Assembly (NCBI GenBank): GCA_016235865.1 | Contig: JACRIK010000026.1 | Span: 1 to 64,000, forward strand | DNA from: Planctomycetota bacterium | Lineage (GTDB): Bacteria > Planctomycetota > MHYJ01 > JACQXL01 | Direction of reading: 5' to 3' | DNA length: 64,000 nucleotides | Shown here: piece after piece, positions 4,179-6,113 of the stretch | How positions within the stretch are numbered: the first letter of the stretch is position 1 | How the letters are laid out: each line of letters opens with the position of its first letter | Made by a program: the position numbers and the translations under genes | The notes under the pieces: generated by a model | Databases searched by the model: none | What the model was told of the DNA's origin: nothing | What the model saw: the letters and a program-made list of their open reading frames with translations, nothing else

Positions 4179-5390
4179 CTATTTCACTCCCGGCAAATCA
4201 TTGAAACCCTCCCGGCGTCTGATGAGTCGGGCTTTGTTCCCTTTGACCATTACTTCAGCCGGTTTCGGCCGCATATTATACTGCATAGCCATTGAATAGC
4301 CATATGCGCCGGCATTCTTTATTGCCGCGATATCGCCTTCCTGGAATTTGGTGATTTCACGGCCGTGCGTGAACATATCGCCGCTCTCGCAGAGATTGCC
4401 GCAGACCGCCACGAATTGTTTGGGGCCTTTCAATCGGCTGGCGTTGACTATTTCGTGGTAGGCATTATAGAATGCATGGCGGATGAGATGGTTGAATCCG
4501 GAATCCGTTCCGACAAAGGTATGCTCCGGCGTCTCCTTGATATCGGTTACCGTGGTCAGGAGCGTGCCGGCCTCACAGACCGGATAGCGGCCGGGTTCAA
4601 GCATCAGTTGCAGTGGCTGGCCGTAATGGCGGCAGAAGGCGTTGAACCGCTCCGAGACCATCCGGCCGAATTTCCTGATGTCCAGGTTCTTCTGCCCGGG
4701 GCTGTAGGCCACGCCCAGGCCGCCGCCCAGATTGATGAATTCCAGTCCCTTAAAGTTGATGGCAATCTTAAGCATTATTTCCATGGCCGTGATAAAGGTC
4801 TCGGTCTCCAGGATGCCCGAGCCGATATGGTGGTGCAGTCCGATGATTTTCATCCGGTATTTGGCGGCAATCCTGAGCGCCTGGTCCAACTGGTAAACCC
4901 AGATGCCGAATTTGGAATCCGGTCCGCCGGTAATCACGTGCTCATGGTGGCCCTCGCCCACGTCCGGGTTGATGCGCAGGGACACGTCCAGCCCGGACCT
5001 GATTTTTCCGACCTTTTCCAGCTGGGAAAGCGAGTCAGCGCTGATATGCACGCCCTGTTTGACCACATAGGCCAGTTCGTCGGTCCGGCAGTTATTGCCG
5101 GTGAAGGATATCTCGTGCGGCCTGAAGCCGTTGCGCAGGGCGCAGTATATCTCGCCGGGCGAGACCGCGTCTATGCCGAATCCCTCCTGGCGCAGGATTT
5201 TCATAATGGCCGGATTGGTATTGGACTTGCAGGAATAGAGGAGTTTGGTGTTGGGATAAGTAATGGCCTGGCGCAGGGACCCGGCCCGTTGGCGGATGAT
5301 ATTCTCGTCATAGACGAATAGGGGGGTGCCGAAGCGCCTGGCTAAGTTGACGGCCGATAGTTTCCCGATGAGTAGTTGGTTGTTTGGCAT
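4179..5390 (-). CDS. lysA: Diaminopimelate decarboxylase
   Basis: This 403-residue enzyme removes CO2 from meso-diaminopimelate to give lysine. It is a fold-type III PLP enzyme: the PLP lysine is K55 (LLYSCKSN), HHHIGSG is near residue 190, the glycine-rich phosphate loop FINLGGGLG is near 220, and the CESGD substrate motif is near 335. A tyrosine of the GYSMAMQYN segment near the C-terminus fits the usual active site. The gene converges with hom across a family A repeat. The upstream Shine-Dalgarno signal is weak. Confidence 0.93.
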   Translation of the reverse strand: MPNNQLLIGKLSAVNLARRFGTPLFVYDENIIRQRAGSLRQAITYPNTKLLYSCKSNTNPAIMKILRQEGFGIDAVSPGEIYCALRNGFRPHEISFTGNNCRTDELAYVVKQGVHISADSLSQLEKVGKIRSGLDVSLRINPDVGEGHHEHVITGGPDSKFGIWVYQLDQALRIAAKYRMKIIGLHHHIGSGILETETFITAMEIMLKIAINFKGLEFINLGGGLGVAYSPGQKNLDIRKFGRMVSERFNAFCRHYGQPLQLMLEPGRYPVCEAGTLLTTVTDIKETPEHTFVGTDSGFNHLIRHAFYNAYHEIVNASRLKGPKQFVAVCGNLCESGDMFTHGREITKFQEGDIAAIKNAGAYGYSMAMQYNMRPKPAEVMVKGNKARLIRRREGFNDLPGVK

Positions 5391-5416: not shown

Positions 5417-5478
5417 TATCCCGGCAAATACTGCCGGGATAAGAAACTGTAATTCACTTCGTTCATAACAGTTTCTAA
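5417..5478. repeat. Hairpin repeat, family D, copy abutting tRNA-Arg
   Basis: TATCCCGGC...GCCGGGATA forms one hairpin, followed by AAGAAACTGT...ACAGTTTCT forming a second. It touches the 3' end of the tRNA-Arg gene and may end its transcript. The same AAGAAACTGT/ACAGTTTCT pair occurs in the element at 6035-6099. Confidence 0.7.
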
Positions 5479-5552
5479 TACGCCCGAGTGGATTCGAACC
5501 ACTGGCCTGCGGTTTAGGAAACCGCCGCTCTATCCAACTGAGCTACGGGCGC
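5479..5552 (-). tRNA. tRNA-Arg (anticodon CCU)
   Basis: The minus strand folds as a complete 74-nt cloverleaf: acceptor GCGCCCG/CGGGCGT (first pair G-U), D arm TAGCTCAGTTGGATAGAG, anticodon arm GCGGT-TTCCTAA-ACCGC with anticodon CCU, and T arm AGTGG-TTCGAAT-CCACT. The discriminator is A and no CCA is encoded. The last codons of the upstream GIY-YIG gene overlap the tRNA 5' end. Its 5' half is present again, broken, at 5878-5905 and 6021-6113. Confidence 0.95.
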
Positions 5553-5556
5553 GTTG
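5526..5556 (-). repeat. 31-bp direct repeat, copy in tRNA-Arg
   Basis: This 31-bp stretch is the 5' half of tRNA-Arg plus four bases. It is repeated exactly and in the same orientation at 5879-5909, so the two copies bracket the GIY-YIG gene. The stop codon of that gene is the TAG of the tRNA sequence CCCGTAGCTC. Confidence 0.9.
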
Positions 5557-5839
5557 GCTTAACCTTAATACATCCTTCAGTAATAATTTGCTCGATAATC
5601 TTACGGCTTTTAAGCGGTTTTAACTTATATTCTATTTGTTTGGCTTCCTTAATAGTTTCATATTTCTGATAGAACGCTATAGTTAAAGGCCTGATATTAC
5701 GCGTTGCCTTTACAAAGCCGTTATTGTGTCTTTCTAACCTCTTTTCTAAATCCTGGGTGCTTCCGATATAATAAGTTCCGTTACGGTTGCTTTTTAGTAT
5801 ATAAACATAACCGTAACATTGTTTTGCCATTAAGTTCAT
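5543..5839 (-). CDS. Small GIY-YIG family nuclease
   Basis: The 98-residue protein is a stand-alone GIY-YIG domain: YGYVYILKS at residues 9-17, YYIG at 23-26, the conserved Arg in LEKRLERH near residue 34, and a Glu near 66-70. It should cut DNA, although many such small proteins are uncharacterised. ATG codons at 5839 or 5830 are possible starts and neither has a good Shine-Dalgarno. The gene lies between two exact 31-bp copies of the tRNA-Arg 5' half, and its final residues and stop are read from tRNA sequence. This looks like a mobile or homing-type insertion. Confidence 0.88.
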   Translation of the reverse strand: MNLMAKQCYGYVYILKSNRNGTYYIGSTQDLEKRLERHNNGFVKATRNIRPLTIAFYQKYETIKEAKQIEYKLKPLKSRKIIEQIITEGCIKVKPTRP

Positions 5840-5877
5840 TCAGTATAAACTTGCGGCCTCCCCGATGTAACATCGGG

Positions 5878-5909
5878 GCGCTCTATCCAACTGAGCTACG
5901 GGCGCGTTG
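5878..5909 (-). pseudogene. tRNA-Arg 5' fragment, copy 2
   Basis: It matches the tRNA-Arg acceptor and D-arm half and the following GTTG. On the minus strand the sequence then changes to CCCCGATGTTACATCGGGG, an 8-bp hairpin with a 3-nt loop, where the anticodon arm should be. There is no 3' half, so it cannot be a functional tRNA. It lies about 40 bp upstream of the GIY-YIG start codon. Confidence 0.85.
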
Positions 5910-5953
5910 CTCGCTGTTAGCTCCCCGATTACCATCAGGGGCGTTACTGCGAG

Positions 5954-5980
5954 TTATCCCGGCAGTATTTGTCGGGATAA
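5954..5980. repeat. Hairpin repeat, family D
   Basis: TTATCCCGGCAG...GTCGGGATAA forms a hairpin between the second and third tRNA fragments. It is the same TATCCCG.../...CGGGATA module that abuts the intact tRNA at 5417. Confidence 0.6.
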
Positions 5981-6020
5981 GTAATTTATACTTTCCTAAT
6001 TGACCGTTAAGCAGGTCGGG

Positions 6021-6113
6021 GCGCTCTATCCAACCCCCGACGTTACGTCGGGATAAGAAACTGTAACGTGGCGCCTTTGTCGCCACTAACAGTTTCTAAT
6101 GAGCTACGGGCGC
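6021..6113 (-). pseudogene. tRNA-Arg 5' fragment, copy 3, split by a 65-bp insertion
   Basis: GCGCTCTATCCAAC (6021-6034) and TGAGCTACGGGCGC (6100-6113) together rebuild the 28-base tRNA-Arg 5' half. A hairpin element at 6035-6099 separates them inside the D arm. No anticodon or 3' half follows. Confidence 0.85.
6035..6099. repeat. 65-bp hairpin element inserted in a tRNA fragment
   Basis: CCCCGACGTTACGTCGGG and AAGAAACTGT...ACAGTTTCT form two hairpins, with a third in the middle (GTGGCGCCTTTGTCGCCAC). Removing it restores the tRNA 5' half exactly, so its ends are precisely defined. It is a relative of the element at 5417-5478. Confidence 0.8.

Follow-up and report, generated by a model that had tools for sequence, protein, structure and literature searches.

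A GIY-YIG nuclease gene lies between broken copies of a tRNA-Arg(CCU) and the intact gene in the window (the whole 64,000-nt stretch of DNA that was analysed). Its recurrence on many tRNAs and in RNase P RNA loops, in at least two distant phyla, suggests that a family of tiny mobile elements lodging in hairpins has been overlooked. On balance, and with little more than even confidence, we read the unit as a single-gene selfish element whose SLX1-like nuclease would favour hairpin DNA and whose insertion, with duplication, would leave one working tRNA. The layout, its recurrence, the strand bias, the empty sites, the inverted-repeat flanks, the nesting in RNase P RNA and the conserved active site were each observed directly.

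On the minus strand, from 6113 to 5417, the locus comprised copy A, copy B, the GIY-YIG gene, the complete tRNA-Arg(CCU) and a palindromic repeat, followed by a gene that, from its protein, we take to be diaminopimelate-decarboxylase-like. The features are as follows:

6100 to 6113, minus strand: broken copy A, tRNA bases 1-14
6035 to 6099, minus strand: double-hairpin palindromic repeat of 65 nt in the D-loop of copy A, between A14 and G15
6022 to 6034, minus strand: broken copy A, tRNA bases 15-27
5923 to 6021, minus strand: palindrome CCCCGA...TCGGGG at the anticodon-arm position of copy A, split by a palindromic repeat at 5955-5984
5879 to 5905, minus strand: broken copy B, tRNA bases 1-27, 100% identical to the intact tRNA
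5860 to 5878, minus strand: palindrome CCCCGATGTTACATCGGGG with a 9-bp stem, where the anticodon arm of copy B should be (from the sequence)
5855 to 5859, minus strand: AGGCC, remnant of the copy B variable loop, after the hairpin (from the sequence)
5543 to 5839, minus strand: GIY-YIG nuclease ORF, 98 aa (Pfam PF01541, E 2.2e-16)
5553 to 5556, minus strand: CAAC, immediately 5' of the intact tRNA, with a second copy at 5906-5909; start of the 31-nt direct repeat
5479 to 5552, minus strand: complete tRNA-Arg(CCU) (ARAGORN; Rfam RF00005, 69.8 bits)
5417 to 5478, minus strand: double-hairpin palindromic repeat touching the 3' end of the intact tRNA

In the window, both ARAGORN and Rfam scored the complete tRNA alone and left the broken copies uncalled. 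Together with Pfam and the direct repeat, these searches confirmed what a sequence-only reading of this DNA had described, namely a complete tRNA-Arg(CCU) accompanied by a GIY-YIG gene and two partial tRNA copies. The direct repeat is exact over 31 nt (5526-5556 and 5879-5909) and consists of tRNA bases 1-27 plus the four upstream bases. The nuclease frame does end inside the tRNA, as that reading had said: its stop TAG (5543-5545) corresponds to bases 8-10 of the intact tRNA (5479-5552), and its final codons, ACG CGC CCG TAG, are bases of the tRNA. The statement that the copies end at the anticodon arm holds approximately. Both break at tRNA base 27, but copy B regains its variable loop, and in copy A the D-loop is also interrupted by the 65-nt insert and a palindrome fills the anticodon-arm position. 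Replacement of the copy B anticodon arm by a hairpin was borne out, with a stem of 9 bp and not 8 bp. The tRNA-like fold of leader B was not exceptionally stable (z −1.2). Elsewhere in the 2.67-Mb genome, near-exact copies of the 5' half of tRNA-Arg(CCU) were found only as whole tRNA genes; this lack of other such fragments, and the recurrence at dozens of loci elsewhere, excludes a chance origin of the layout. The two broken copies suggest two rounds of insertion.

Two kinds of unit were distinguished. Class I consists of a tRNA 5' part, the gene and an intact tRNA, and class II of an intact tRNA, the gene and a tRNA 3' part. For the clearest cases of either class, gene and tRNA join near positions 45-61. 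In class II (L085, L087, L070, L008), the gene takes its last codons from the T-arm (GGGTTC), after which come T-loop palindromes and then the tRNA 3' end. Class I palindromes occupy the D-loop or the anticodon arm, with clean insertions at L051 (between 36 and 39) and L187 (at 32). Among the class I pairs of gene and tRNA, 30 had a 5' fragment 10 nt or more in length, L002 being counted twice (tRNA-Ala and tRNA-Val). The stop codon fell inside the downstream tRNA in 17 of the 30 pairs, and at least 3 bases directly upstream of the tRNA 5' end were repeated in 12 of the 30. A palindrome (stem of at least 6 bp) was present in 22 of the 30 leaders, compared with 15 of 60 control stretches. A shared stretch of at least 9 nt was found in 39/53 class I and 18/37 class II pairs, some of them by chance, so not every tRNA-adjacent gene has a recognisable tRNA fragment. 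The duplication was variable in size: at most loci it reached 0-6 nt upstream of the tRNA, and L113 and L117 had 24 to 74 nt or more, a spread that no single cut geometry explains.

Within the window genome, a second unit (L002) closely parallels copy B: 26 exact bases of tRNA-Ala(CGC) are followed by the hairpin CCCGATGTCACATCGGG, which stands where the anticodon arm would be, and then by AGTCAGGGGTT (the beginning of the T-arm), the GIY-YIG gene and the intact tRNA-Ala(CGC). At L003 (tRNA-Lys), a D-loop palindrome sits between bases 14 and 15, matching copy A, and L030 is interrupted at this site too. The palindrome sequences are unrelated to each other, which makes their tie to the nuclease circumstantial, and the control stretches were also palindrome-rich.

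Linkage of the nuclease gene to tRNA genes extended well beyond the window. The window genome, placed in class Brocadiia on the basis of its relatives, encoded nine GIY-YIG relatives, including the window gene, and six of these were less than 150 bp from a tRNA (P 4e-11). Across nine Brocadiia genomes of the same order, a tRNA lay within 300 bp of 28 of 43 GIY-YIG genes, and in the set related to a Patescibacteria genome, 32 of 72 had one within that distance (P below 1e-17), with distance limits and thresholds chosen during exploration and with queries that started from a tRNA-linked gene, which biases the near-tRNA fraction upward and leaves the strand bias unaffected. In both sets, the tRNA and the adjacent gene were on the same strand in every case. 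The loci come mostly from metagenome assemblies (MAGs), and the genome sets were assigned to groups only via their named loci, which in the order set include Candidatus Brocadiia DeMMO3_52 and a Hainich Brocadiaceae bin. Genomes carried 9-13 copies of the gene, and the affected targets amounted to 18 tRNA isotypes, RNase P and intergenic hairpins. A profile built from close relatives gave three matches outside the order, L103 (Blackburnbacteria), L105 (Patescibacteria) and L107 (bacterium), all adjoining a tRNA. The class I layout is direct in L103 and L107, and pseudo-tRNA pieces surround the gene in L105. A search of 50,697 phage records returned a single weak match, and a phage origin was rejected on this basis. 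At L155 (3655-4028, minus strand), a GIY-YIG gene follows a tmRNA gene of the same strand at a distance of about 140 bp.

Comparison of related genomes revealed empty and filled versions of one site. Between tRNA-Lys(CUU) and tRNA-Arg(UCU), the window genome is empty (L024), whereas genome G002, of the same family, has a class I unit (L072). The two align over 195 contiguous nt (91.8% identity) that take in tRNA-Lys, the spacer and the first 31 nt of tRNA-Arg(UCU), and the intact tRNA-Arg(UCU) of L072 is displaced by about 296 nt relative to L024. This alignment places the broken 5' part at the ancestral tRNA position. The counterpart of the window tRNA in G002 (L080) is a different tRNA-Arg(CCU), itself intact, and behind it comes a 3' pseudo-tRNA in which the anticodon arm is swapped for the same 19-nt hairpin as in copy B. 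The same tRNA was thus hit in both lineages, with different outcomes.

The earlier proposal of repeated insertion at the same tRNA position was therefore upheld in one part. The nuclease gene, the fragments and the intact tRNA do form one unit, and an insertion history is correct, given the recurrence of this unit at many tRNAs in two phyla and the empty sites in relatives. A single position at the anticodon boundary did not survive. Palindromes enter at positions 12-16 (D-loop), at 24-39 (anticodon arm) or in the T-loop, and the nuclease gene itself meets the tRNA at about 45-61 in the clearest cases, so that the anticodon boundary is not the usual point of entry. That reading had also held that tRNA fragments in relatives lacking any nuclease history would count against it. 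Superficially, such fragments do occur, without a nuclease, at L080, L030 and L027, but all three are at tRNA loci in genomes that carry the nuclease family.

The GIY-YIG genes were also found away from tRNAs. Strong flanking inverted repeats surrounded 19 of 56 tRNA-distant genes compared with 7 of 503 shuffled pairs. At L052 (G002, RNase P RNA gene at 1168-1876), an intact ORF occupies the apical loop of P12 in an RNase P RNA that is otherwise full-length (244 bits), and this insert carries a search-detected 17-bp inverted repeat; P12 is short in the RNase P RNA of the window genome and of G001. At L125 (G072, a 0.70-Mb single contig; RNase P RNA gene at ~1459-2388), an intact ORF lies between the P3 strands, inside P1, as read by eye, and at L241 (G085, RNase P RNA gene at 1501-2270) a decayed GIY-YIG ORF lies in the P12 loop. 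These nested genes come from two phyla, and the proteins of L052 and L125 are sisters (SH-aLRT 89). An apical-loop ORF with terminal inverted repeats, the arrangement of rRNA-type intervening sequences, was seen at L052, L125 and L241; it was not seen at the window locus, where the intact tRNA is uninterrupted. Another GIY-YIG subclade lies inside GTCATTCTGAG-type dispersed palindromes and is possibly the autonomous form of the GTCATTCTGAG / GTCATTCCCG-type repeats. Genes in the loops of such palindromes were noted at L156 (near 5098-5376), L159, L160, L191, L101, L144, L073 and L118.

The Pfam GIY-YIG domain spans residues 9-79 of the 98-residue protein. Nine residues were invariant in 25 aligned relatives, including Y13, G26, R34, H38 and E70, and the tyrosine, arginine and glutamate that mark the GIY-YIG superfamily are all among them. 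SLX1 is a structure-specific endonuclease, and the closest solved structures, by sequence and by predicted fold, were UPF0213 (1zg2, 1ywl) and SLX1. The predicted structure is a single compact domain (mean pLDDT 86), and neither Pfam nor the predicted fold gave a separate DNA-recognition domain in the 98-aa protein. Judged by these comparisons, the nuclease is a member of the UPF0213/SLX1-like group with a predicted intact active site. We favour recognition of DNA shape rather than sequence, as the protein has no added DNA-recognition domain and its varied targets have the hairpin in common. The protein tree, built on few columns, was poorly resolved and gave no support for a class II clade (78/500 shuffles as low). 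Clustering by tRNA isotype was weak (46 changes vs. a shuffled mean of 50.1; 9/500 as low), and strong isotype specificity was rejected.

We propose that an element of about 280-340 bp inserted in the tRNA-Arg(CCU) gene and duplicated the tRNA 5' part. Of the two copies, the upstream one would now be a broken leader 5' of the nuclease gene and the downstream one the working tRNA. The nuclease would recognise branched or hairpin DNA (tRNA-gene cruciforms, terminators, palindromes, RNA-gene stems) and not a long sequence, and would nick at loops and at the stem base. Repair of the break could then copy the element in, with a target duplication ranging from short to long. Selection would retain events that leave one intact tRNA, with either the 5' part (class I) or the 3' part (class II) duplicated, and would also tolerate insertion in permissive loops such as RNase P P3/P12 and intergenic palindromes. 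The short palindromes that dead copies carry in their D-, anticodon and T-loops may have accumulated afterwards, either as non-autonomous relatives of the element or as products of repair in the same process. That this nuclease mobilises the element, that its nicking is structure-specific and that selection acts in this way we infer from sequence.

A broader reading, which we offer tentatively and rather doubt, takes in the hairpin loops of tRNA arms, of RNase P helices and of dispersed palindromes alike. It would make these units a new class of minimal mobile element, a structure-specific GIY-YIG gene inserting by DNA shape, with common short palindromic repeats, the GTCATTCTGAG-type among them, as its non-autonomous derivatives. 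If these units are indeed selfish elements, essential single-copy RNA genes would be recurrent homes of the smallest selfish genes, the host surviving through tRNA-regenerating duplication or a tolerant RNase P loop. There would also be a testable driver for the palindromic repeats scattered in many bacterial genomes, whose mover has so far been unclear.

Alternatively, a classical free-standing homing endonuclease could cut a specific tRNA sequence and be copied by homologous recombination via the duplicated arms. SegB, a GIY-YIG homing endonuclease between tRNA genes, is a precedent (PMC2988022), the catalytic site is intact, and the duplicated arms offer ready homology. Some protein clades have an isotype in common across genomes (Ser, Pro, Val), and the weak isotype clustering is equally compatible with sequence-specific homing. 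We nevertheless consider such homing unlikely, albeit a serious contender, as the protein is a catalytic domain only, the targets range over so many isotypes, RNase P and intergenic hairpins, and the clustering by isotype is no more than weak. Tandem duplication by slippage could also have come first, with the dead tRNA copies, being tolerant, later gathering mobile palindromes and passenger nuclease genes. The broken copies without a nuclease (L027, L030, L080) and the palindromes that adjoin intact tRNAs as well are consistent with this order of events. However, many loci have the gene placed exactly between the fragment and the intact copy, always on the tRNA strand, the unit size is near-constant, and the fragments end at the T-arm. 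Independent decay would not yield this precision of placement, strand and size, which makes the duplication-first order improbable.

A host function, in which a tRNA-operon gene (e.g., for tRNA quality control) is regulated by a tRNA-like leader, would account for the same-strand linkage, the stop codon overlapping the tRNA and the structured leader. We give it little credence in view of the many unrelated tRNAs linked, the close relatives without the gene at the same tRNAs, the 9-13 copies per genome, the decayed copies (L046, L241) and the nesting in RNase P RNA and intergenic palindromes. MAG data naturally raise the concern of chimeric joins at repeated tRNA sequence, since repeats are difficult to assemble. 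Such an artefact is nonetheless scarcely credible here, as the layout recurs in independent assemblies of different phyla, including the single-contig G072, and open reading frames and conserved residues are retained.

Set against known systems, the proposed selfish element shares traits with several. Integrative elements insert into tRNA genes and regenerate an intact gene. The present units likewise have a partial-tRNA direct repeat at both ends and a restored tRNA (31 nt in the window; 30 class I pairs), but no integrase or recombinase, the GIY-YIG ORF being the sole gene in the unit. Double-hairpin elements of Allomyces have been linked with a GIY-YIG gene. They are mobile palindromic double hairpins of mitochondria (cited in PMC7218506), similar to the repeats here in form and different in being organellar. 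T4 SegB, encoded among tRNA genes, promotes inheritance of the T4 tRNA region, and with other free-standing GIY-YIG homing endonucleases it resembles our units in being a gene among tRNA genes without an intron (PMC2988022). Empty alleles exist here (L024 vs. L072). Unlike SegB, the present elements are chromosomal, have no DNA-recognition domain, are flanked by pieces of the adjoining tRNA and occur at many tRNAs and hairpins. A group I intron with an endonuclease was rejected, as no catalytic core was found and the only Rfam match in the window was the tRNA. Dada transposons of eukaryotes also target tRNA and small RNA genes but have a DDE transposase, target duplications of 6-7 bp and a length of several kb (PMC3706591).

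Intervening sequences of 23S rRNA (e.g., in Coxiella) have an ORF in place of an RNA apical loop, set in an extended hairpin that is bounded by terminal inverted repeats (PMC4990558), which resembles the RNase P P12 case. Theirs is an S23 protein ORF with demonstrated RNase III excision (PMC4990558), whereas the ORF here is a nuclease hosted by RNase P RNA or by a redundant tRNA copy. The nearest published case, ahead of T4 SegB and the 23S rRNA intervening sequences and in the same host group, is that of the rRNA genes of CPR (Patescibacteria), where GIY-YIG ORFs occur in sparse inserts unlike group I/II introns, at poorly conserved sites, and were judged by the authors to be outside homing; the majority of rRNA inserts there are placed at the top or base of a stem-loop (PMC11270868). 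That report does not deal with tRNA genes, RNase P RNA, palindromes or Planctomycetota, and the words 'tRNA' and 'RNase P' are absent from it (PMC11270868). Our literature search, with subscription journals and preprints mostly outside its coverage, found no paper that connects GIY-YIG genes with tRNA genes in Patescibacteria, and none that connects them with inserts in RNase P RNA. Nor did it yield an earlier description of tRNA or RNase P RNA as hosts of GIY-YIG inserts, those in rRNA genes being already known (PMC11270868).

Several smaller features of these loci were also recorded. Many predicted GIY-YIG proteins bear false C-termini translated from tRNA genes; in those of L067, L072 and L085, the C-terminal tails (e.g., PVAQLDRATDF) are translated downstream tRNA, which is a trap for annotation. 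Double-hairpin repeats (TTA-stem-TTA-loop-TTA-stem-TTATCCCG..CGGGA) abut the 3' end of intact tRNAs, or the 5' end when inverted, at window positions 5417-5478 and at L008, L017, L019, L025, L030 and L044, with a stem sequence that differs in each copy. A pseudo-tRNA-Ala at L047 (~1855-1935) has palindromes in its D-, anticodon and T-arms and keeps the linking tRNA segments. L111 (1452-1861 on the gene strand) holds a split pseudo-tRNA-Ile whose acceptor stem differs; its 5' and 3' parts overlap in sequence and lie around the nuclease gene and an intact tRNA-Ile, and it looks as if one tRNA had been replaced by another.
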